Positions 7,209 to 23,167 of a stretch of DNA of 64,000 bases are shown in pieces (the stretch's first letter is position 1; the number at the start of each line of letters is the position of its first letter). Both the position numbers and the translations under genes were made by a program. The stretch is taken from positions 62,001 through 126,000 of the forward strand of contig JAGAFD010000007.1 in NCBI GenBank assembly GCA_017612805.1. The letters run 5' to 3'. This DNA comes from Bacilli bacterium. GTDB taxonomy: Bacteria > Bacillota_I > Bacilli_A > RF39 > UBA660. A model generated the notes under the pieces. It searched no databases. It was not told the DNA's origin and was given only the letters and a program-made list of their open reading frames with translations.

Positions 7209-9359
7209 ATGGTAAAAAATAATATTAGAATTCTTAAAAAAAGTGGAGCCATTCAAGAGTTTAATGGTGAAAAAATTAAATCAGCAATTAGAAGAAGTGC
7301 TGAAAGAGTATGTGTAACTTTAACCGACAAGGAAGAAGAAAAGGTTGTTGAAACGGTAAGAAAACAACTTGAATTTAATGAGGTTCCAGTTCCGGTTTCA
7401 ACAATTCATAATATGGTTGAATGTGCACTTGATACCGTAAACACTTCAGTTGCTAAAAGTTATCGTGAATATCGTGATAACAAAAGTGCTTTTGCATCAA
7501 TGTTAGATAAAGTTTATAACAAAAAGTTATCGCTAAACTTTATTGGTGATCGTAGTAATGCTAATTCTGATAGCGCTTTAGTTACTACTCAAAAAGCAAT
7601 TGTTTATAACGAACTTAATAGTGAACTATATAAAAAATTCTTTTTAACAGTTGAAGAAGAAAAAGCAATGAGTGAAGGTTTTATTTATATTCATGACCGT
7701 GGTTCAAGACTCGATGCCATGAATTGTTGCTTATTTGATATGAAAAGCTTACTTACTGGCGGATTCCAAATGGGTAATCTAGATTATCAAGAACCTAAAA
7801 CCTTAGATGTTGCATTTGACTTAATTGCCGATGTTTCAATGAATGCTGCTTCTTGTCAATATGGTGGATTTAGTATTTCTGAGATTGATAAATTACTAGC
7901 ACCATATGCTGAAAAATCATATAAAAAGTATCTTAAAGATTATAAAAAGATTGTTGAAGAAGCTGGTGGTAAATATGATAAGAAAAAAGCCGACGAATAT
8001 GCAATGAAAAAAGTTGAACGTGATATGGAACAAGGTTTCCAAGGATTCGAAATGAAGTTCAACTCAGTAGCATCTAGTCGTGGTGATTATCCGTTTACTT
8101 CAATTAGTATGGGTTTAGGAACTGGTAAGTTTGAAACATTAGCTACATCAGTTTGTATGCGTGTAAGAAAAGAAGGACAAGGAGCTCCGGGATTTAAACA
8201 TCCAGTGCTATTCCCAAAAATTAGTTTCTTCTTTGATCATAACTTACATGGCAAAGGTAAAAAACTAGAGTGGTTATTTGATGAAGCAATTGATTGTTCT
8301 TCAAAAGCAATGTATCCTGATTATATTTCTTGTACAGGTGATGGTTATGGACCTTCAATGTATAAAAAATATGGGGTTACAATTTCAAGAATGGGTTGTC
8401 GTGCTAATTTATCGCCTTGGTATGAAAGAGGCGGTATGGATCCCGCTGATGAAAACGATAAACCAGTTTATGAAGGAAGATTTAATTTAGGAGCTATTTC
8501 CATAAACTTCCCAATGATTGCTTATAAAGCACAAAAAGAAAATCGCGATTTCTATGAAGTATTAACATATTACATGGAAATGATTAGAAATATTCATAAA
8601 AGAACATTTAATTATTTTTCACATAAAAAAGCTGGAACTAATCCATTAGGTTTCTGTCAAGGAGCTTTCTATAATGGGCACTTTGATCCAGAAGATGAAA
8701 TTGGTGAAGATTTCTTAAGACCAATGACCATGAGTTATGGTATTACTGCTTTAAACGAAGCTAGTATTATTCAAACCGGAAAAGAAATTCATGAAGATAA
8801 CAGTTTTGCTATCGAAGTATTAAAATTTATTAATGATTATACTAATCGTATTAAAAGAGAAGATAATATTTTATATGCTATTTATGGTACACCTGCTGAA
8901 ACATTATCTGGTACTCAAGTTAAACAATTTAGAAAAATGTATGGTGAATATAAAGGCGTTACTGATAAACCATATACAACTAATTCATTCCATTGTTCAG
9001 TAAAAGCTGATATTACGCCAATTCAAAAACAAGATATTGAATATCCAATGTTCCATTTATGTAATGGTGGAAACATTCAATATTGTCGATATAAACTTGG
9101 TTATAATAAAGAAGCTATTAAAACCATGGTACTTCGTGGAATGGATATGGGATTCTATGAAGGCGTTAATTTACAATTAGATTATTGTGAAAAATGTGGA
9201 CATCAATTTATTGATAGTGACACATGTCCAAAATGTGGTAGTAGCGATATAACTAGAATTGAAAGAATGAATGGTTATTTAGGCTATTCCAGAATTAAAG
9301 GTAGAACAATGTACAACGATGTTAAACTTGCTGAATTTAAAGATAGGGTGAGTATGTAA
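7209..9359 (+). CDS. nrdD: Anaerobic ribonucleoside-triphosphate reductase, complete
   Basis: A 716-residue class III reductase that makes dNTPs by glycyl-radical chemistry without oxygen. It has an N-terminal ATP-cone (about 5-95), the catalytic barrel with Cys397 in MGCRANLSPW, a C-terminal zinc site (Cys660, Cys663, Cys673, Cys676), and the radical loop RMNGYLGY with Gly689. The loop has Asn in place of the commoner Cys before Gly-Tyr. ATG 7209 is chosen over an in-frame upstream start because GTAGAGGTAGAG at 7193-7204 provides an RBS and the preceding gene ends at 7206. The stop overlaps the nrdG start (TAATG), implying translational coupling. Confidence 0.95.
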   Translation: MVKNNIRILKKSGAIQEFNGEKIKSAIRRSAERVCVTLTDKEEEKVVETVRKQLEFNEVPVPVSTIHNMVECALDTVNTSVAKSYREYRDNKSAFASMLDKVYNKKLSLNFIGDRSNANSDSALVTTQKAIVYNELNSELYKKFFLTVEEEKAMSEGFIYIHDRGSRLDAMNCCLFDMKSLLTGGFQMGNLDYQEPKTLDVAFDLIADVSMNAASCQYGGFSISEIDKLLAPYAEKSYKKYLKDYKKIVEEAGGKYDKKKADEYAMKKVERDMEQGFQGFEMKFNSVASSRGDYPFTSISMGLGTGKFETLATSVCMRVRKEGQGAPGFKHPVLFPKISFFFDHNLHGKGKKLEWLFDEAIDCSSKAMYPDYISCTGDGYGPSMYKKYGVTISRMGCRANLSPWYERGGMDPADENDKPVYEGRFNLGAISINFPMIAYKAQKENRDFYEVLTYYMEMIRNIHKRTFNYFSHKKAGTNPLGFCQGAFYNGHFDPEDEIGEDFLRPMTMSYGITALNEASIIQTGKEIHEDNSFAIEVLKFINDYTNRIKREDNILYAIYGTPAETLSGTQVKQFRKMYGEYKGVTDKPYTTNSFHCSVKADITPIQKQDIEYPMFHLCNGGNIQYCRYKLGYNKEAIKTMVLRGMDMGFYEGVNLQLDYCEKCGHQFIDSDTCPKCGSSDITRIERMNGYLGYSRIKGRTMYNDVKLAEFKDRVSM

Positions 9360-9886
9360 TGAGATATCATAATATTACTAAAGCGGATATGTTAAATGGT
9401 AGTGGACTTAGAGTAGTTTTGTGGGTAAGTGGCTGCTCTCATCATTGTAAGGGTTGTCAAAATAAAATTACTTGGAATCCGCTATGCGGTTTAATATTTG
9501 ATGATGACGCTAAACAAGAAATATTTACTGAATTAGAAAATGATTGGTGTAGTGGAATTACGCTTTCTGGTGGGGATCCTTTATTCCCTGGTAATAGAGC
9601 TGATATCGCATTATTAGTTAAAGAAATTAAAGAAAAATATCCAAATAAAAATATTTGGTGTTATACCGGATTTACTTGGGATGAATTAATGGAACAAGTA
9701 GAAACGGATGAAAATCTAAAAACCATTTTAGATAATATTGATGTATTATGTGAAGGTCGATATGTAGAAAATGAACGTAATATTAATAAGCACTGGGTTG
9801 GTTCAAATAATCAAAAAGTGTTAGATGTTCATAAGAGCTTATCTACTCATCACGTTAACTTGATAGAAGGAGAAATTTATGGCTAG
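9359..9886 (+). CDS. nrdG: Anaerobic ribonucleotide reductase activating enzyme
   Basis: A 175-residue radical-SAM activase. The 4Fe-4S motif is Cys26-x3-Cys30-x2-Cys33 (GCSHHCKGC), followed by the SAM-binding SGGDPLFPGN region. It cleaves S-adenosylmethionine to install the glycyl radical on NrdD. Only the second, complete NrdD in this operon offers a radical glycine. The ATG shares its A with the nrdD stop codon, and its own 3' end overlaps dut by 8 bases, so the four genes are one operon. Confidence 0.95.
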   Translation: MRYHNITKADMLNGSGLRVVLWVSGCSHHCKGCQNKITWNPLCGLIFDDDAKQEIFTELENDWCSGITLSGGDPLFPGNRADIALLVKEIKEKYPNKNIWCYTGFTWDELMEQVETDENLKTILDNIDVLCEGRYVENERNINKHWVGSNNQKVLDVHKSLSTHHVNLIEGEIYG

Positions 9887-10331
9887 AGGTTTTGAAATTG
9901 CTAAAGGATGGGAAGATAAAGGAATAAATATTCCTGTTAGAAAAACGAAAAATGCTGCTGGTTATGATGTAGAAGCAGCAGAAGATATTATTATTCCAGT
10001 ATGGAAACCAGGTATTAAACCAACATTAATTCCAACCGGTTTAAAAGCTTATTGTGAACCTGATGAATGGTATATGTTAGCTAATCGTAGTTCGGGACCT
10101 AAAAAAGGTTTTGTAATGGCTAATTCAATCGGAATTATTGATTCAGATTACTATTGTAATCCTGATAATGATGGACATTTCTATTTTTCATACTTTAATT
10201 GTTCAGATCATGATATAGAAGTTAAAAAAGGAGACGTAATTGGTCAAGTAATATTCATGAAGTACTTAATTACTGATGATGATAATGCTTCTGGAATACG
10301 CCAAGGAGGCTTCGGATCTACTGATAAATAA
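9879..10331 (+). CDS. dut: dUTPase-family deoxyuridine triphosphate nucleotidohydrolase
   Basis: A 150-residue trimeric-type dUTPase. Motif I is AAGYDVEAAED (about 27-37), motif II the RSSGP segment, motif III GIIDSDYY, and the C-terminal motif V RQGGFGST. It hydrolyses dUTP to dUMP and diphosphate, keeping uracil out of DNA and feeding dTMP synthesis, which fits with the nrd genes. RBS AAGGAG lies inside the nrdG end. The middle has a short insertion (NPDNDGHFYFSYFN), common in phage-like and Firmicute dUTPases. Confidence 0.9.
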   Translation: MARGFEIAKGWEDKGINIPVRKTKNAAGYDVEAAEDIIIPVWKPGIKPTLIPTGLKAYCEPDEWYMLANRSSGPKKGFVMANSIGIIDSDYYCNPDNDGHFYFSYFNCSDHDIEVKKGDVIGQVIFMKYLITDDDNASGIRQGGFGSTDK

Positions 10332-10422: not shown

Positions 10423-12186
10423 ATGTTTAAAATAATAAAAAATTTAACAATTAAAGATGTAATTTTTTGTTTAATAGCACTTGTTTTAATTGTTGGACAA
10501 GTCTATTTAGATTTAAAAACACCAGATTATATGTCGAAGATAACAGAATTAGTAACCACTGGTGGATTGATGAAAGATATTTTAATTCAAGGTGCTTACA
10601 TGTTACTTTGTACTTTAGGCGGATTAGTGTTAGCAGTAAGTATTGGTTATATTACGGCTAGAGTTGGAACTAATTTTAGTAAAGTTTTAAGAAGAAAAAT
10701 CTTTAAAAAAGTTAATTCCTTTAATATGGGAGAAATTAAAGGATTTTCAACAAGTAGTTTAATTACAAGAAGTACTAATGATGTTATGCAAGTGCAAAAC
10801 TTTATTACCATGGGATTACAAATGGCTGTAAGATCACCAATTATGGCAATATGGGCGATAACAAAGATAGCCAATAAAGGATTTGAATTTTCAATTGTAA
10901 CGGCTTTTGGGGTATCAATTATTATCGTGATGATTACAATTTTGTTAGTATCGGTATTACCTAAATTTAAGTTAATTCAAACATTAACTGATGATTTAAA
11001 TAATACTACCCGTGAAAATGTTACTGGTATAAGAGTTATTAGGGCTTTTAATGCGGAGAAATTTCATCAAAAAAGATTTAATAAGGCTAATAATAGTTTA
11101 ACAAATATTCACATGTATATTCAAAAAAGATTAGCATTAATGAGTCCAACGATGACTTTAGTAATGCAAAGCTTATCTTTAGGTATTTATGTTATTGGAG
11201 TATTACTAATTAATAAAACTATTAATCCAGCTGATAAAATTACCGTATTTGGTAATATGGTAGTCTTTACTTCTTATGCTGTTCAAGTAATCTTTTCTTT
11301 AATTATGTTAATAGTAGTATTTGTATTTTATCCAAGAGCAGCTGTTTCTGCTAATCGTATTAATGAAGTATTAGAAACCGATACAACTATTAAAGATGGA
11401 TTAGTTGATCACGATGTTAATAATGTTAAAGGGGAAGTTGAATTTAAAAATGTTAGCTTTAAATATCCAGATGCTGAAGAATATATTCTAAATGATATTT
11501 CTTTTAAAGCAAATAAAGGCGAAACAATTGCATTCATTGGTTCAACTGGTTCTGGTAAATCTACCTTAATAAATTTAATTCCGCGCTTTTATGATGCTAC
11601 TAAAGGCGAAGTTTTAGTTGATGGGGTTAATGTAAGGGAAATGAAATTATCTTATTTATATAATAAGATTGGTTATATATCTCAAAAACCAGTAATGTTT
11701 AAAAAATCAATTAAAGATAATATTTCATTTGGTAAGTGTGCGAGTGGTAAAGCTTCGGATAAAGATATAACTGATGCATTAAAATATGCTGAAGCATCTA
11801 GTTTCGTTAAAAAATTAGAAGGGCAAGAAACTTATGAAATTGCTCAAGGTGGTAATAATGTATCTGGTGGACAAAAACAACGTTTATCGATAGCTCGTGC
11901 TATTGCTCGGAAACCGGAAATCTTTATCTTTGATGATTCATTTAGTGCCCTAGATTATAAAACTGATTATGAACTTAGAAAGAATCTTAAAAAATATTTA
12001 AAAGATTCAACAGTATTCATTGTTGCTCAAAGAATTGGAACAATTAAGAATGCGGATAAAATTATTGTTTTAGATAATGGTACTTGTGTTGGAATGGGTA
12101 CGCATCATGAATTGTTAAAAACTTGTGAAGTTTATAAAGAAATAGCTGAATCACAATTATCAAAGGAGGAGTTAGAAAATGCATAA
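10423..12186 (+). CDS. ABC exporter half-transporter, degenerate-site subunit
   Basis: A 587-residue multidrug/lipid-type ABC exporter with six transmembrane helices (about 13-310) and a nucleotide-binding domain. Walker A is GSTGSGKST (373-381) and the signature VSGGQKQR (480-487). The Walker B segment reads FIFDDSFSALD, with Asp505 where the catalytic Glu is expected, and the H-loop has Gln536 (VAQRIGT) instead of His. Such changes are typical of the degenerate subunit in heterodimeric exporters of the BmrCD or TM287/288 kind. It overlaps the next subunit by 8 bases, so the pair should be made together. The substrate cannot be told from sequence. Confidence 0.92.
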   Translation: MFKIIKNLTIKDVIFCLIALVLIVGQVYLDLKTPDYMSKITELVTTGGLMKDILIQGAYMLLCTLGGLVLAVSIGYITARVGTNFSKVLRRKIFKKVNSFNMGEIKGFSTSSLITRSTNDVMQVQNFITMGLQMAVRSPIMAIWAITKIANKGFEFSIVTAFGVSIIIVMITILLVSVLPKFKLIQTLTDDLNNTTRENVTGIRVIRAFNAEKFHQKRFNKANNSLTNIHMYIQKRLALMSPTMTLVMQSLSLGIYVIGVLLINKTINPADKITVFGNMVVFTSYAVQVIFSLIMLIVVFVFYPRAAVSANRINEVLETDTTIKDGLVDHDVNNVKGEVEFKNVSFKYPDAEEYILNDISFKANKGETIAFIGSTGSGKSTLINLIPRFYDATKGEVLVDGVNVREMKLSYLYNKIGYISQKPVMFKKSIKDNISFGKCASGKASDKDITDALKYAEASSFVKKLEGQETYEIAQGGNNVSGGQKQRLSIARAIARKPEIFIFDDSFSALDYKTDYELRKNLKKYLKDSTVFIVAQRIGTIKNADKIIVLDNGTCVGMGTHHELLKTCEVYKEIAESQLSKEELENA

Positions 12187-14715: not shown

Positions 14716-16935
14716 ATGAAGAAGAAATATAAAGATAGGAATAATTATATTTATCTTGTAGCTGTAGTTACTATTTTAACAATAGTGTTTTTAACTATTG
14801 GTTTTTCAGATTCAACAATTTATGGAAATATAGATAATATTGGGGCTCGAGTAAGAATTCAAAGAGATATTAGAATAACTGAAGTTACTATTAATAATGC
14901 TTTAAATAATGCGGTTTCTAGTTGGGAAACTGAAAATGTTAAAACCGTTGCTGCGGGAATTAGTTTACCAGATAATAATTCACAAATAACATATAATGTT
15001 AAAGTAATGAATATCGGTAATATGGAAGCAGTGATTTCAAATATTAGTGGTCTTCCTGGTAATTTAACATATACTTTGAATAATTATAATTTAAATGATG
15101 TTTTATGTGATGATAATAATTCTTCACAATGTAAGCTTGGATCAGTAACAACGATTGCAATTACGATTAAATATGCAGCAAATGGTTATAATAGTAGTAA
15201 CACTGATTATAATATAGCTCTTGATTTTACTTTTGATTATACTGTTGATTCGGTTGCTAAAATTGGAGCAAATTACTATAACACGTTACAAGCAGCAATT
15301 AATGCGGTTCCAAATGATAAAACAGAAACAACAATTACGTTATTAAAAAATATCAGTGAAACTGTATCAATGACAGAGAATAAAAATATTGTTTTGGATT
15401 TAAATTATCATACATTATCAAATAATCAAAATAAACCGGTTATTTCAAACAAAGGTATATTAAAATTAACTAATGGTATTATTACTACTGATGCTGCCAC
15501 AAATGGGGCTGTAAATAATGAATCATCTGGTACTATTGTAATTGACGGTGTTAGAATAATTGTTACTGGTGGAAGACAAGCTTTTTATAATAATAAAGGT
15601 AAAGCAACGATTACAGGAAGTTCATACTTATATTCAGAAGCTACTGAAAGAGCTGCTTGTCAAAATGTTTCTGGTGGTACGATGACAATTCTTGGTGGAA
15701 CAATAATTTCTACTGGTTCAGCGGCTTTAAATAATGCCGGAACATTAACGATTGGTACTAAAGATGGTGAAGTAAGTTCGCTTATTCCATCTTTCCAAGG
15801 TACTACTTATGGTATTACTAGTACAACTAATTATAAATTTTATGACGGTATTGTTAAAGCGACAGGGTCAATATTTAATGATGTTAATAAAATTACGGAA
15901 AAAGAAGTTAATAGTAGTTTTATTTATGAAACCGATGGTAATTTAAAAATTGCATATTTAGCACAAGCTTGTGTTGTTACATTCACGGCTAATATCAGTG
16001 GGGCTAATTTAAGTGAATCAAGTAGAAGTGTTTTAAAAAATCATGAACTAGGTACGTTACCAACAGTTACAAAAGCCGGATATGAGTTCTTAGGTTGGTA
16101 TACGCAATCTTCTGGTGGTGAACAAATTAATGCTTCCACGGTTATTACTGAAAATATTACCTTCTTTGGTCATTGGATGAAAAATACTGATGTTGCATCT
16201 ATCGGCGATTCTTACTATGGAACATTATCAGCTGCGGTTAATGCCGCACCAGATAATATTGAAACAACTATTACAATGCATAAAACAATTAGTGAATGGG
16301 TTGTTATTCCAAGTACAAAAAATATTATTTTAAACGGTAATAATATTACTTTAACAAATAATGGTAATAAACCGATAATTGAAAATAATGGAACAATTAC
16401 CATTAATAATGCTGTTTTAAATTCTGGGGCAGCCCAAGCAGCAATTAATAACTTGGCTGGTCATTTAATAGTTAATAATAGTCGTGTTGTTGAAACCAGT
16501 GCTAAACAAGCAATGTATATTACTGGAGGTACTGTTGAAATAACTGGAAATTCTTATTTTGAATCACAAACATATGGAACACCCGATGGTAGTACAATGG
16601 AAAGAGGTACTGTTCAAGTAATTTCGGGTAATTTAATTGTTCATAGTGGAACCATTGTTGGTACTAAACAACAAGCTATCTCTAATGAAGGAACATTAAC
16701 CATTGGGGTTAAAGATGGTTCTATTGATAGTTCATCACCAGTATTAATGGGAGCAGTTCATGGTATTAGAAATGCTGGTACTTTCAATTTTTATGATGGT
16801 ATTATTAAAGGAAAAAATGATGCTATTTATGGAAATGTTGATGATCAAGAAACTGATTCTCAAATTGTAATTGGTTCAGAAACCATTAGTAATAATACTT
16901 ATATTACTGCACAATTAGTTTTAGATGAGGAGTAA
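14716..16935 (+). CDS. Large secreted surface protein: TasA-like start, beta-helix repeats, InlB B-repeat
   Basis: A 739-residue exported protein. A hydrophobic helix at 11-30 ends in IGFSDSTIYGNI, resembling the TasA/camelysin signal region handled by SipW peptidases. Residues 45-175 form a beta-rich N domain. Two similar modules follow (AKIGANYYNTLQAAINAVPN at about 181 and ASIGDSYYGTLSAAVNAAP at about 495), each succeeded by Asn/Gly/Thr-rich short repeats of right-handed beta-helix type. Between them lies an InlB B-repeat/Flg_new module (about 417-486, GYEFLGWYTQSSGGEQI). No LPXTG is seen at the C-terminus. Likely an adhesin or matrix protein. The SipW-like peptidase lies 0.8 kb downstream. 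Confidence 0.8.
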   Translation: MKKKYKDRNNYIYLVAVVTILTIVFLTIGFSDSTIYGNIDNIGARVRIQRDIRITEVTINNALNNAVSSWETENVKTVAAGISLPDNNSQITYNVKVMNIGNMEAVISNISGLPGNLTYTLNNYNLNDVLCDDNNSSQCKLGSVTTIAITIKYAANGYNSSNTDYNIALDFTFDYTVDSVAKIGANYYNTLQAAINAVPNDKTETTITLLKNISETVSMTENKNIVLDLNYHTLSNNQNKPVISNKGILKLTNGIITTDAATNGAVNNESSGTIVIDGVRIIVTGGRQAFYNNKGKATITGSSYLYSEATERAACQNVSGGTMTILGGTIISTGSAALNNAGTLTIGTKDGEVSSLIPSFQGTTYGITSTTNYKFYDGIVKATGSIFNDVNKITEKEVNSSFIYETDGNLKIAYLAQACVVTFTANISGANLSESSRSVLKNHELGTLPTVTKAGYEFLGWYTQSSGGEQINASTVITENITFFGHWMKNTDVASIGDSYYGTLSAAVNAAPDNIETTITMHKTISEWVVIPSTKNIILNGNNITLTNNGNKPIIENNGTITINNAVLNSGAAQAAINNLAGHLIVNNSRVVETSAKQAMYITGGTVEITGNSYFESQTYGTPDGSTMERGTVQVISGNLIVHSGTIVGTKQQAISNEGTLTIGVKDGSIDSSSPVLMGAVHGIRNAGTFNFYDGIIKGKNDAIYGNVDDQETDSQIVIGSETISNNTYITAQLVLDEE

Positions 16936-16991
16936 TAAATTGCTATTAGACACTGATATTTGTGATTTTTTACATATTATTGGTAATTTTG

Positions 16992-17000
16992 TGTTATAAT
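16992..17000 (+). promoter_or_regulatory. Extended -10 promoter for the TasA-like operon
   Basis: TGTTATAAT at 16992-17000, upstream of the AGGTG-led start at 17041. It makes the downstream three-gene unit transcriptionally separable from the preceding surface protein gene. Confidence 0.55.
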
Positions 17001-17040
17001 TCAATTGTAATAGTATAAGGATATGTTTGGAGGTGAATAT

Positions 17041-17679
17041 ATGAATAACAATGCTTATAAGATTATTTCAATTATTGCTTTAGTTTTAGGAGTTTTAGGA
17101 GTTACTTTAGGATATGCAGCTTTTTCTAGTACACTTACTATTTCATCATCAGCTAATGTTACCCCATCATCTTCGACATTTAATGTAGATTTTTCATCAA
17201 GTTCTTCTTCTGTTGTTGCTGATCCAATCACACCAACATTAAATAAAACTGCTACTGGTTTTTCTGCTACCAATGCAACTATTAATAATAGTAGTGATCC
17301 AATAATTTCAAATTTAGTAGCAACATTTACTGAACCTGGACAAAGTGTTACTTATGATTTTTATGCATATAATGCTGGAGAATTTATTGCTTATTTAAAT
17401 GGTATTAATTTCTCAGGTTCTAAAACATGTACTGCTGTCACTGGCACAACTCAAGCATTAGTTAATAGTGCTTGTAATGGTATTACGTTAAGTGTAAAAG
17501 TTGGTAGTGAAGATGCAACTACTACTTCTATTGGTAGTATTAGTGGACATTCACTTGCAAAAAATACAGCTGAACAAGTAACAGTAGTTATTTCATATGT
17601 TAGTGGTAGTGCGGTTGCTGATGGTAATTTCAATGTAACATTACCTGATATTGTATTAACTTATGATTCATTAGATTAG
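17041..17679 (+). CDS. TasA/camelysin-like secreted protein
   Basis: A 212-residue protein. A signal region, residues 5-26, ends LGVTLGYAAFSSTLTI, which matches the SipW-dependent TasA/CalY pattern (small residues then Ser/Thr-rich start). The remainder is Ser/Thr/Val-rich beta strands with few charges, as in fibre-forming matrix proteins. ATG 17041 is preferred over an in-frame ATG at 17023 because GGAGGTG at 17030-17036 is the ribosome binding site. It is followed by a SipW-type peptidase after 28 bases with no terminator, so they are co-transcribed. Fibre formation is an inference from family knowledge. Confidence 0.75.
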   Translation: MNNNAYKIISIIALVLGVLGVTLGYAAFSSTLTISSSANVTPSSSTFNVDFSSSSSSVVADPITPTLNKTATGFSATNATINNSSDPIISNLVATFTEPGQSVTYDFYAYNAGEFIAYLNGINFSGSKTCTAVTGTTQALVNSACNGITLSVKVGSEDATTTSIGSISGHSLAKNTAEQVTVVISYVSGSAVADGNFNVTLPDIVLTYDSLD

Positions 17680-17707
17680 TTAGTGTTTTTAAAAAGGAGG
17701 AAGTAAT

Positions 17708-18826
17708 ATGAAGCCTGGATATAAGCGATTAATAATATTTATATTTTGCTTACTTGGTATTCTTATAATCAACTCCTTTTTTTTTAATTTCCTATCGGGT
17801 TATCGAATAAGTATCCTGATTTTTGCTTTATTAGCTTTTTTTCATTGTTATTATGTTTTTGAAAAAAAAGATTTTCGCCATTTTTATGATATATTATTTG
17901 AAATCTTTGTCTTTGTAATGAGCTTTTTTATAATATATTACTTATTTGGAATAATTGTTGGTTTAGCAAAGACGGTTAATTATTTTACAATCAGAGGGAT
18001 ATTTATTATAATCTTACCTTTGGTTTTATATATTATTTTACGAGAAATATTAAGATATAACTTATTATTAAAGGCAGATGACAGTAAGATTATTTCTATA
18101 CTAGTAGTAGTCTTATTTGTTATGTTTGATTTAACGAATAGTATTTATTATGCTAATTTAAATTCTGAATATGCAACATTTAGATTCACGGCATTAAGTT
18201 TATTGCCTGTTATTTCATCAAATATTGCTTATTCTTATATTTCTAAGAAAACGGGATATATTCCAATTGTGATCTTTGATTTAATAATGGTTTTATATCC
18301 ATATTTGTTACCAATTATTCCTAATCCAAGTGAATATGTGGTTTCAGTTATTACATTTATTATTCCAGTATTATTTGCATTAAGAATAAGACGATTTTTT
18401 AATCGTTATAAAGATGATTTTATTCCGAGTAATTATCGTAAAAAAAGATATATTGGTTTGTTTCTACCAGCAATAATTATCATAGTTTTAGTATATTTAT
18501 ATAGTGGTTATTTCCGTTATTATGCGATTGCTATTGGTAGTGGTAGTATGGAACCGAAGATAAAAAAAGGTGATGTAGTTATTGTAAATCAAAAAACTTC
18601 TAAATTTGAAGTTGATGATGTTATTGCTTTTAAAGAAAGTGAATATATAATTGTTCACCGTATCGTAAATATTGTTAAAGTTGGCAATGAAGAATATTAT
18701 TATACTAAAGGAGATGCCAATCAAAATATTGATGATTTTGTAGTTGATAAAAAATCAATTATTGGAAAGGTTTATGGAAAAGTGGCATATGTTGGATATC
18801 CAACCGTATGGTTAGGAGAAAAGTAA
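17708..18826 (+). CDS. SipW-type (S26B) signal peptidase with multi-spanning N-terminus
   Basis: A 372-residue membrane protease. Residues 1-265 hold about seven or eight transmembrane helices. The C-terminal third is an S26B peptidase: Ser280 in GSGSMEPKIKKGDVV, His317 in YIIVHRIVN (His instead of the Lys of ordinary SipA-type enzymes), and Asp336 in TKGDANQ. SipW itself is about 190 residues, so the large membrane extension is unusual. Its gene lies directly after the TasA-like gene, which makes that protein and the upstream large surface protein its likely clients. RBS AAAAGGAGG lies just upstream. Confidence 0.85.
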   Translation: MKPGYKRLIIFIFCLLGILIINSFFFNFLSGYRISILIFALLAFFHCYYVFEKKDFRHFYDILFEIFVFVMSFFIIYYLFGIIVGLAKTVNYFTIRGIFIIILPLVLYIILREILRYNLLLKADDSKIISILVVVLFVMFDLTNSIYYANLNSEYATFRFTALSLLPVISSNIAYSYISKKTGYIPIVIFDLIMVLYPYLLPIIPNPSEYVVSVITFIIPVLFALRIRRFFNRYKDDFIPSNYRKKRYIGLFLPAIIIIVLVYLYSGYFRYYAIAIGSGSMEPKIKKGDVVIVNQKTSKFEVDDVIAFKESEYIIVHRIVNIVKVGNEEYYYTKGDANQNIDDFVVDKKSIIGKVYGKVAYVGYPTVWLGEK

Positions 18827-18839
18827 GGAAGTGTGTTTA

Positions 18840-19982
18840 ATGGCTAATACTAAAAAAAGTAAAAGTATTAAAAAAGTACCTAATAATCCTACAAATAAAA
18901 AAGATTCTTTAATAAAAAGAATATCTAATTATTTGAGTTTTAATATGCGTTTTTCTATTGATATCATCTTATTAATGGTATGTGCTTTTGCAATGGTTTA
19001 CTGTGTTGGTATGGCTTTTAAATATGCTCAAAACGAATTAATTACTTATACTGAAAATGGTAATGTTGATTATAAAGTTTATTTAAAGAAAAATAATTTT
19101 TATGATAAACCTTTCTTAAATAAAGATATGGTTTATGTAGCTAGTTTAATTGATAAGATAGTGATTGATTTTGATTATAATTTTAATGTTAACGAAGCAA
19201 GTGATATTATTTTTAAATATAATGTGATTGCTAACTTAGTTATTACTAGCCAAAATAATTCTAAAACCTTCTTTGAAAAAGAATATGTTTTGTTAGATGA
19301 TGTTACTGATGAAATAAAGAAAAGTAAAAATTATAATATTAAAAAAGAAGTAGTTATTAATTATGCTAAGTATAATAATTTAGCTAATCAATTTAAATCA
19401 CATTATGCGGTTAATACGGTTAGTTATTTAGATGTTTATTTACAAGTATTAGAACGTAGTAAAGACTCTAACTTATATCAATTAAATGATACTAATAAAA
19501 CTTTATTAAGAATACCAATTTCAGAGCAAGAAGTTAATATTAATTTGGATAATGAAAAAGTTCATGAAGAAAAACAAGTAGTTTCTAAATCAAGAATCTT
19601 AATTAAAAATAAAAAATACATTGTAGCAATGGGATTCTTGTTATTTATGATGCTAATTGCATTAATTGGAATTGTTCGTAAAGTGATAACATTAATTGAA
19701 GAAATCAGTTATTATGATCGTCATGTTAAACGTTTACTTCGTGCTTATGATCGTATTATAGTAAATGTTGTAACGCCACCTAATTTTAAAGGGTATAACG
19801 TTATTAAGGTAGAGAACTTCCAAGAATTAGTTGATGTACGTGATAATACGAAGGAACCAATTAAGTATTATGTTATTACTCCACATAAGAAGTGTGAATT
19901 CTTCTTAACTAATGGTAAAGATTTATACTTATTTGTAATTGAAGAAATTGGTATGAAAGAAATAATTAAAAACCATTCATAA
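18840..19982 (+). CDS. DUF5305-like membrane protein linked to SipW
   Basis: A 380-residue protein with a Lys-rich cytoplasmic N-terminus and transmembrane helices near 45-65 and 255-280. A beta-rich extracytoplasmic domain lies between them, with the start YKVYLKKNNFYDKPFLNKD characteristic of DUF5305. A cytoplasmic C-terminal region includes NFQELVDVRDNTKEPIKYY. DUF5305 genes are known next to S26B signal peptidases in archaea and some Firmicutes, as here. Function is unknown; accessory to secretion or assembly of SipW-cleaved proteins is inferred. ATG 18840 has GGAAG upstream. The start 10 bases earlier in another reading is less likely. Confidence 0.65.
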   Translation: MANTKKSKSIKKVPNNPTNKKDSLIKRISNYLSFNMRFSIDIILLMVCAFAMVYCVGMAFKYAQNELITYTENGNVDYKVYLKKNNFYDKPFLNKDMVYVASLIDKIVIDFDYNFNVNEASDIIFKYNVIANLVITSQNNSKTFFEKEYVLLDDVTDEIKKSKNYNIKKEVVINYAKYNNLANQFKSHYAVNTVSYLDVYLQVLERSKDSNLYQLNDTNKTLLRIPISEQEVNINLDNEKVHEEKQVVSKSRILIKNKKYIVAMGFLLFMMLIALIGIVRKVITLIEEISYYDRHVKRLLRAYDRIIVNVVTPPNFKGYNVIKVENFQELVDVRDNTKEPIKYYVITPHKKCEFFLTNGKDLYLFVIEEIGMKEIIKNHS

Positions 19983-20000
19983 TAAATGAATGGTTTTATT
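19969..20000 (+). terminator. Terminator of the TasA-SipW-DUF5305 operon
   Basis: A 12-bp stem AAAACCATTCAT (19969-19980) and ATGAATGGTTTT (19986-19997) with a 5-base loop. The stop codon of the DUF5305-like gene is at its tip. Confidence 0.8.
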
Positions 20001-20048
20001 ATGTCACCTAATATTTTGATGTTTCATATATTAATATAGGTGATTAAT

Positions 20049-21074
20049 ATGGCTAAAAAAGTTGTTATTGATGCTGGTCATGGTGGTAGTGATCCGGGTG
20101 CTATTGGTAATGAGATAACTGAAAAAGATCTTACTTTAAAAATTAGTAATTATATTCACAAAAGACTAAATGAATTAGGAATCGAAAATAGTTTAACAAG
20201 AAGTGGTGATGCAACATTAAGTCCTACTGATCGGGTTAAGAAAATATTAAGTTTTTATGGTAATGGTAATGATGTTATTGTTCTTTCTAATCATATTAAT
20301 GCTGGTGGTGGTGAAGGTGCTGAAATTATTTATGCTTTAAGAAATAATGATAATTTATCAAAAAAAATATCCGAAAGTTTAGAAGCAAATGGTCGTGAAG
20401 TGAGAAAATATTATCAAAGAAGATTACCTAGTAATCCGGCAAAAGATTATTATTTTATAATGCGCGATACTCCGGATACTGAAAGCATTATTATTGAGTA
20501 TGGTTTTTTAGATAACGTTAGTGATGCTAATAAGTTAAAGAATAATTGGCAAGAATATGCTGAAGCGGTAGTAAAAGGGATAGCCAATTATTTAGGAGTA
20601 CCATATCAAGAAGAAATTAGTGAGATCAATAAATATTACATTGTTAAGAAAGGTGATACTTTATATAGTATTGCTAAGAAATATGGTACTACGGTTGATA
20701 ACTTAAAACTTATTAACAATCTAAATTCTAATATGTTATCAATTGGCCAAAAATTATTATTGGCTAAAGATTCTGAAGATAATATTGATAATCAATATAT
20801 TGTGAAAAAAGGCGATACATTATATAGCATTGCTAAGAATAATAACACAACCGTTGATGACATTAAAATGACTAATAATTTATCTTCTAATTTATTATCG
20901 ATTGGTCAAAAGTTATTAATACCAATAACTTCTATAATATATGAAGTTAAAAAGGGAGATACTTTGTATGGAATAGCTAAACAATTTAATACTACGGTGA
21001 ATAACTTAATAGATATCAACAATTTAAAATCTACTTTACTTTCAATAGGTCAGAAATTATTAATCAAGAAATAA
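20049..21074 (+). CDS. N-acetylmuramoyl-L-alanine amidase with three LysM domains
   Basis: A 341-residue Amidase_3 enzyme that cuts the amide between muramic acid and the stem peptide. The zinc site is seen in VIDAGHGGSDPGA (His), the following Glu, VLSNHINAGG (His) and IIIEYGFLDN (catalytic Glu). It occupies residues 3-185. Three LysM repeats follow (about 197-240, 250-295, 298-341), each starting YxVKKGDTLYSIAK. There is no signal peptide: the protein begins MAKKVVIDAGHG. That resembles mother-cell lytic amidases such as CwlC or phage endolysins rather than a vegetative autolysin. ATG 20049 follows AGGTGAT, and the upstream GTG belongs to the RBS. Confidence 0.9.
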   Translation: MAKKVVIDAGHGGSDPGAIGNEITEKDLTLKISNYIHKRLNELGIENSLTRSGDATLSPTDRVKKILSFYGNGNDVIVLSNHINAGGGEGAEIIYALRNNDNLSKKISESLEANGREVRKYYQRRLPSNPAKDYYFIMRDTPDTESIIIEYGFLDNVSDANKLKNNWQEYAEAVVKGIANYLGVPYQEEISEINKYYIVKKGDTLYSIAKKYGTTVDNLKLINNLNSNMLSIGQKLLLAKDSEDNIDNQYIVKKGDTLYSIAKNNNTTVDDIKMTNNLSSNLLSIGQKLLIPITSIIYEVKKGDTLYGIAKQFNTTVNNLIDINNLKSTLLSIGQKLLIKK

Positions 21075-22166: not shown

Positions 22167-22195
22167 TTTGTTATAATATTAATGAGATGATTAAT

Positions 22196-23167
22196 ATGAA
22201 AAAGAAATTTAAGTTATTACTATTATTAATTACATTTATATGTTTAGTATTCATAGGAATAATGTTTTATATTCGTAATGTAAGATATACTTTTAAATTA
22301 GCAGATAAAGTGTCAGTTAATTTAAATGACTCAGTTGATCCAGCTAAATATATTAAAGACATGAAAAATGTTAATGTTTATTATGAATCAATTGATACAT
22401 CAAAAGCTGGTATATATAAAATTAAGTATACAGTTAAAACTAATTTAGGGATTAAAAAGGATTATTATTTAGAAGTTGAAGTTATTGATAATACGCCAGT
22501 AATCAAAGTAGAACCAGAAGTAGAACCAAATCCCGAAAAGGTTGAAATTAAAACTACTGAACCAGTTAAGAATAATAAGGTGGTTAGTAGAACATCAAGT
22601 AAAGGTTATAAAGTTGAAGAAATTAATTCGGTAACATATGTTAATGGTATTTTGATCGCTAATAAAACTTTTTCCCTTCCATCAACTTATAATCCAGGAG
22701 GATTAACAAGTGAGGTTAATGCAGCTGCTGATGAAATGTTTGCGGCTGCTAAAGTGGTAGGATTTGAAATGAAAGCACAAAGTGGTTTTAGATCATATGA
22801 AACGCAAAGAAAGTTATATAATAATTATGTTAATCGTGATGGCAAAGCAAAAGCTGACACGTATTCTGCAAGACCTGGCCATTCGGAACATCAAACTGGC
22901 TTAGCATTTGATGTGTGTGCTAAAGGTTATGCGTGTATTAATTCTAATTTTAATGGTACTGCACCGGCTAACTGGTTAGCTAATAACGCTCATCTATATG
23001 GTTTTATTTTAAGATATCCAAAAGGTAAAACAAATGAAACTGGTTATTTGTATGAATCATGGCATTTTAGATATGTAGGTAAGGAATTAGCAGCAGAATT
23101 ATATAATAATGGTGATTGGATTTCACTTGAAAATTATCTAGGAATTACTTCTGAATACAGTAATTAA
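22196..23167 (+). CDS. D-alanyl-D-alanine carboxypeptidase, M15B (VanY/DacB-like)
   Basis: A 323-residue membrane-anchored zinc peptidase. A transmembrane helix (about 5-27) leads to a small Ig-like beta domain (about 35-100, ending KKDYYLEVEVIDN), a charged linker, and the M15B domain (about 150-315). The domain carries SGFRSYETQRKLY, the ligands His and Asp in SEHQTGLAFDV, and the last His in ESWHFRYVG. It trims terminal D-Ala from peptidoglycan stem peptides. ATG 22196 follows a GATGA-type site and an extended -10 promoter. Its 3' end overlaps the converging CwlJ-like gene by 4 bases. Confidence 0.9.
   Translation: MKKKFKLLLLLITFICLVFIGIMFYIRNVRYTFKLADKVSVNLNDSVDPAKYIKDMKNVNVYYESIDTSKAGIYKIKYTVKTNLGIKKDYYLEVEVIDNTPVIKVEPEVEPNPEKVEIKTTEPVKNNKVVSRTSSKGYKVEEINSVTYVNGILIANKTFSLPSTYNPGGLTSEVNAAADEMFAAAKVVGFEMKAQSGFRSYETQRKLYNNYVNRDGKAKADTYSARPGHSEHQTGLAFDVCAKGYACINSNFNGTAPANWLANNAHLYGFILRYPKGKTNETGYLYESWHFRYVGKELAAELYNNGDWISLENYLGITSEYSN

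Follow-up and report, generated by a model that had tools for sequence, protein, structure and literature searches.

Surface fibres of the AbpX/TasA type are usually treated as needing signal cleavage and a starter only. TasA fibres have been described as assembling by donor-strand exchange with a TapA starter and no other machinery (PMC9674648). The tapA-sipW-tasA operon of B. subtilis pairs an S26B (Ser/His) peptidase, SipW (model length 189), with a subunit that carries an AAF-type signal and a PG...N.G domain and probably forms a donor-strand fibre. Aromatic residues at P2' hinder P-type signal peptidases, and the phenylalanine at P2' is part of the reason why LepB cuts TasA poorly (PMC10269814). 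The archaeal bundling pili (AbpX/AbpA) are likewise associated with an S26B peptidase of the archaeal type. In S. pyogenes, SipA, a signal peptidase homologue without catalytic residues, is essential for pilus polymerization (PMC4049620). It has a bacterial-type fold and a single anchor helix, and serves sortase pili.

The locus described here lies in a window of 64,000 nucleotides (the whole stretch of DNA that was analyzed) from a Bacilli bacterium with a genome of 1.05 Mb and about 27% GC. Four genes at 14716-19982, all on the plus strand, encode a large repeat protein, a TasA/AbpX-like subunit, a signal peptidase and a DUF5305 protein. We use PEP for this signal peptidase, an S26B (Ser/His) enzyme with eight additional membrane helices. 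The features are as follows.

14716..16935, plus strand: large surface protein, 739 aa, with export signal, TasA-like N-terminal domain (about residues 1-180), repeats, and a PF09479 repeat at residues 421-484
17029..17035, plus strand: ribosome-binding site GGAGGTG, read from the sequence, setting the subunit start at ATG 17041
17041..17679, plus strand: TasA/AbpX-like fibre subunit, 212 aa, with signal end LGYAAFSS and motif PG...N.G (P99, N111, numbered within this protein)
17708..18433, plus strand: PEP residues 1-242, eight-helix membrane domain with invariant G81, E113, R116 and P205
18434..18826, plus strand: PEP residues 243-372, anchor helix and S26B catalytic domain with S280 (18545-18547) and H317 (18656-18658)
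18840..19982, plus strand: DUF5305 protein with N-terminal helix, Ig/FN3-like extracytoplasmic sandwich (about 19017-19610), second helix (19611-19694) and C-terminal domain (about 19710-19976), predicted to be cytoplasmic
19969..19997, strand not assigned: AT-rich stem-loop overlapping the DUF5305 stop codon, a possible end of the transcription unit (a weak signal, one found against 1.3 expected by chance)

The gaps between the four genes are 105, 28 and 4-13 bases. Use of an earlier ATG would lengthen the subunit to 218 aa; the 212-aa start is the one with GGAGGTG upstream. PEP (17708-18826) has 372 aa. The DUF5305 protein has 383 aa from GTG 18831 or 380 aa from ATG 18840, for which an AGGA is better placed. 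A thymidylate kinase-like gene flanks the cassette on one side and a LysM amidase on the other. The amidase (window 20040-21074) and a VanY-type carboxypeptidase just downstream (22187-23167) fit a peptidoglycan wall in this small genome.

PEP scored 75.5 bits against TIGR02228 (ER/archaeal-type signal peptidase I, S26B; curated cut-off 51.85) and has the catalytic motifs SM (280-281) and HR (317-318). The AlphaFold2 model (pLDDT 87.8) places eight helices before the usual anchor helix and the S26 domain. A sequence-only reading of this DNA had called an S26B peptidase with about eight membrane helices, and was right on both counts. The best structural match of the S26 domain was a chain of the human signal peptidase complex, followed by S. 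pyogenes SipA. The same reading had set the locus apart from the tapA-sipW-tasA operon, and this held: PEP stayed below the cut-off of the Bacillus SipW model NF046067 (68.2 against 190 bits), SipW has no eight-helix domain, and no DUF5305 protein was found in 14 control genomes including B. subtilis.

Foldseek with the whole of PEP found relatives for the S26 domain only, and Pfam searches of 27 PEPs revealed no recurring family over the membrane domain. The eight-helix domain was seen only as part of long PEPs, never as a separate protein. Across 392 evenly sampled genomes of the phylum, it occurred in the lineage's own family alone, apart from one chance-like match (G093). This match and weak ones in G409, G180 and G108, where the frames contain stops, were discounted as chance. 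An origin from CAAX proteases, suggested by E113 and R116, was rejected as unsupported, since the spacing is different, the matching histidines are absent and there is no Pfam match. In a check for a phage origin, two phage contigs matched the S26 domain only.

Conservation was counted in 100 non-redundant sequences, left from 104 long PEPs at a 95% identity limit. Across the family, identity is higher in the S26 domain (45%) than in the membrane domain (34%). Four membrane residues are conserved at least as well as the catalytic pair: G81, R116 and P205 are present in all 100 sequences and E113 in 99, compared to 98 each for S280 and H317. P167, N172, P202 and P220 are retained in at least 90%. 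Judging by these patterns and by the dyad-less clade described below, the membrane domain probably does more than anchor the enzyme.

In searches against solved structures, the profile of the subunit (33 members) matched AbpX, the archaeal bundling pilin, above any other protein (4.4e-8 at best, and also 3.5e-6). A second subunit alignment (52 members) matched it at 1.2e-4. AbpX is thus the nearest solved relative of the subunit, which had not been foreseen, and an archaeal-type S26B peptidase is common to both systems; unlike the bundling pili, the present system has a bacterial host. Four of the 33 subunits match PF12389 (Peptidase_M73/camelysin) at up to 5e-4, but the subunit of the window is not among them. 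The SipW type of the signals is recognized by motif alone, GYAAFS/GFAAFS being the commonest pattern in 95 cassette subunits, while TIGR04088 matches only 2 of 33. The commonest signal end is GFAAF[S/T], which puts an aromatic residue at the inferred P2' position. Together with the PG...N.G pattern, this end fits the TasA/AbpX class.

SipW-type export signals had been proposed for both exported proteins, and both have them: LGYAAFSS in the subunit and LTIGFSDS, a shortened GYAAFS type, in the 739-aa protein. The first 180 residues of the latter match a TasA-like profile. Its description as a beta-helix/InlB-repeat protein was borne out for the InlB-type repeat (PF09479, Listeria-Bacteroides type, 3.1e-11); the repeats make a beta-helix plausible, with no match to a Pfam beta-helix family. 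The source genome holds several more TasA-like genes and encodes two ordinary Ser/Lys (P-type) signal peptidases. An aromatic residue at P2', a hindrance to P-type enzymes, fits a dedicated S26B enzyme. Cleavage of the neighboring exported proteins by PEP is very probable.

Of 60 genomes, 19 have full-length PEP. Alignment A1 as a whole is too diverse for a pattern scan, and a closer subset of it was used to find PEP in 80 named loci. All loci were scanned with iterated profiles of each gene. Duplicates between the 60-genome set and the named loci were removed for the conservation counts; about four remain in the linkage counts. DUF5305 was the immediate next gene on the same strand in 95 of the 100 long-PEP loci with more than 1.3 kb of 3' flank, and was within reach in 97. 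A TasA-like gene was found at most four genes from PEP in 85 of the 87 loci with flank on both sides. Conserved linkage among relatives, on which the sequence-only reading had staked its case, is therefore present, and with open reading frames, domain matches, and an order and co-occurrence far above chance, the four-gene set is real. The commonest order is subunit, PEP, DUF5305, then often a larger protein sharing the N-terminal module of the subunit; in the window, the larger protein precedes the subunit instead.

Among the 60 genomes, 19 had both PEP and DUF5305, none PEP only, one DUF5305 only, and 40 neither (Fisher 1e-14). Inside the lineage's own family the same tally was 18, 0, 1 and 18. 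The single genome with DUF5305 only is 69% complete and has the gene at a contig edge. The form of DUF5305 is inherited together with the PEP subfamily, with two changes on a tree of 110 tips. Nearly all cases of the eight-helix architecture come from one bacterial family; PEP next to DUF5305 was also seen in one member of another family (G050, locus L059). Named relatives with PEP are metagenome-assembled genomes filed as uncultured Bacilli, Erysipelotrichaceae or Tenericutes, and many of the isolate names refer to gut or rumen. They include Candidatus Faecisoma, which NCBI places in Mycoplasmatota, and Candidatus Aphodocola. These names suggest that the source belongs to the uncultured order RF39. 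A full cassette also occurs in a record titled Candidatus Saccharibacteria (L130), perhaps through mis-binning or transfer.

The last protein scored 43 bits against PF17231 (DUF5305; gathering cut-off 29), and all 21 members of alignment A3 match this family at 0.01 or better. In the structure model (pLDDT 87, pTM 0.62), an Ig/FN3-like extracytoplasmic sandwich stands between two helices, and the second helix leads into an alpha/beta C-terminal domain that the topology predicts to be cytoplasmic. A profile search against solved structures gave no match, and a fold search gave only generic Ig/FN3-like sandwiches with Z < 8, from which no function was read. No publication on DUF5305 was found in the open-licence literature. 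In one PEP clade (12 tips), DUF5305 is mostly short, about 130-230 aa, and keeps only the helices and/or the C-terminal domain, which therefore form the conserved core. The C-terminal domain, with conserved L303, Y306, I310, F330, P343, I344 and F357, is kept in all forms.

The window's PEP keeps its catalytic dyad, and only three long PEPs lack it: L053 and L055 (S280A, M281I, H317D) and L190 (S280T, M281I, H317D, R318K). They form one clade (SH-aLRT 100 in a quick tree) with 41-46% identity, and all retain G81, E113, R116, N172, P205 and a TasA-like neighbor. Between L053 and L055, the membrane domain is as similar (44%) as the S26 domain (43%), unlike in the family at large, where the S26 domain is ahead. 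The membrane domain is thus still under selection after dyad loss and should have another role, which suggests that the enzyme may also be an assembly platform. The clade shares loss of the dyad with SipA, in which a signal peptidase fold has been recruited for pilus polymerization. In L055, the dyad-less peptidase (8935-10101) is followed three genes on by an ordinary Ser/Lys signal peptidase (11470-11955), as if catalysis had been handed over.

From the computed gene order, co-occurrence, domain identities, conservation, and retention of the membrane domain after dyad loss, we infer cleavage by PEP, complex formation, donor-strand assembly and a role of DUF5305 as follows. The small subunit and the larger proteins with the same N-terminal module would be exported via Sec with SipW-type signals, which are probably poor substrates for ordinary signal peptidases and would be cleaved by the extracytoplasmic Ser/His domain of PEP. 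The eight-helix domain and the two-helix DUF5305 protein would form a complex that keeps each newly cut subunit at the membrane and thereby allows its N-terminal strand to be handed to the following one. This strand may be received or capped by the sandwich of DUF5305, whose cytoplasmic domain may link assembly with the cell.

We lean slightly towards this reading, in which the locus is a dedicated export/processing and assembly platform for AbpX/TasA-type surface fibres, because it accounts for the linkage, the invariant residues, the dyad loss and the partner. That the extra function of the membrane domain is fibre assembly has, similarly, a little better than an even chance. The sequence-only reading had suggested an additional part for the peptidase in assembly. 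The dyad-less clade and the invariant residues of the membrane domain are real evidence for this, and the assembly role itself stays conjectural. Several findings count against an assembly platform. TasA itself was not significant in the subunit profile search (E 0.28-0.33), about half of the family does without PEP, the clade with short DUF5305 forms lacks the sandwich, which is thus not essential everywhere, and the fold matches of DUF5305 are generic. Moreover, the dyad was lost in a single evolutionary event, known from three genomes, and intact long PEPs are encoded as well in two of these.

The locus might instead provide a dedicated signal peptidase and nothing else, its membrane domain merely positioning the active site or recruiting Sec, DUF5305 being a passive anchor or stabilizing subunit, and the cut fibres assembling by themselves, as the TasA precedent would allow. 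The intact dyad in 98 of 100 sequences agrees with this. We nevertheless consider it unlikely, as the dyad-less clade has kept the invariant membrane residues and the subunit neighbor while more than half of its positions changed, and as other S26B peptidases, including two in the source genome, work without such a domain. SipW of B. subtilis has a second, regulatory role, and PEP and DUF5305 could similarly inform the cell about the status of fibre export by way of the C-terminal domain, which is conserved and is the one part common to all DUF5305 forms including those without the sandwich. Such a sensor is improbable, since the DUF5305 proteins match no kinase, phosphatase or nucleotide-cyclase family and no conserved regulator gene was seen beside the cassette. 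Display of an adhesin, with the large repeat protein as main cargo and the small protein as accessory, would explain why a large protein that shares the N-terminal module of the subunit is often encoded beside or near the cassette. It is highly improbable, because the TasA-like gene that nearly always accompanies PEP is mostly small and directly 5' of it, whereas the large one is often absent.

The pairing of DUF5305 with an S26B peptidase has an analogue in haloarchaea, which was unexpected. On haloarchaeal plasmids, DUF5305 was found at most two genes from an annotated signal peptidase I in 4 of 6 loci; in a fifth, the distance is five genes. The S26B partners carry extra helices, and proteins with [GS]GAF-type signals are encoded nearby. 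The domain order is opposite to that of PEP, with the catalytic domain first and the helices after, and no recognizable similarity was found between these helices and the PEP membrane domain. The Bacilli-class genome G271 (L168) has the haloarchaeal arrangement together with two small signal-bearing proteins. G249 (L167), which is filed in the same class, was left out of the bacterial cases; its contig has 60% GC and haloarchaeal-looking proteins (DUF5305, a signal peptidase and GAF-signal proteins) and is probably mis-binned. As the haloarchaeal and G271 pairs show, DUF5305 is associated with helix-rich S26B peptidases beyond this lineage too, and the N-terminal eight-helix version is a local form of the pairing.

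More tentatively, and with somewhat less than even confidence, we propose that PEP and DUF5305 together could be the first assembly machine for AbpX/TasA-type fibres, a membrane device of two parts whose core subunit is a signal peptidase; the dyad-less clade would have turned into a pure assembly factor, and haloarchaea would have arrived at a comparable pairing by using another membrane module. The conserved partner set raises the question of a dedicated assembly machine, which is now testable. DUF5305 gains its first functional context, in bacteria and haloarchaea, and the cassette becomes a candidate element in the surface biology of a gut lineage that is widespread and uncultured.

The source genome has a second SipW-type cluster outside the window (L063, contig C4, 1445-14331). 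It encodes two S26B peptidases, one short and the other of 676 aa with a long tail, as well as an AAA+-like ATPase with a membrane anchor, a DUF2357 protein (1.1e-13) and several proteins that bear signals. L064 and L052 have similar clusters, which in L052 lie beside the PEP cassette.
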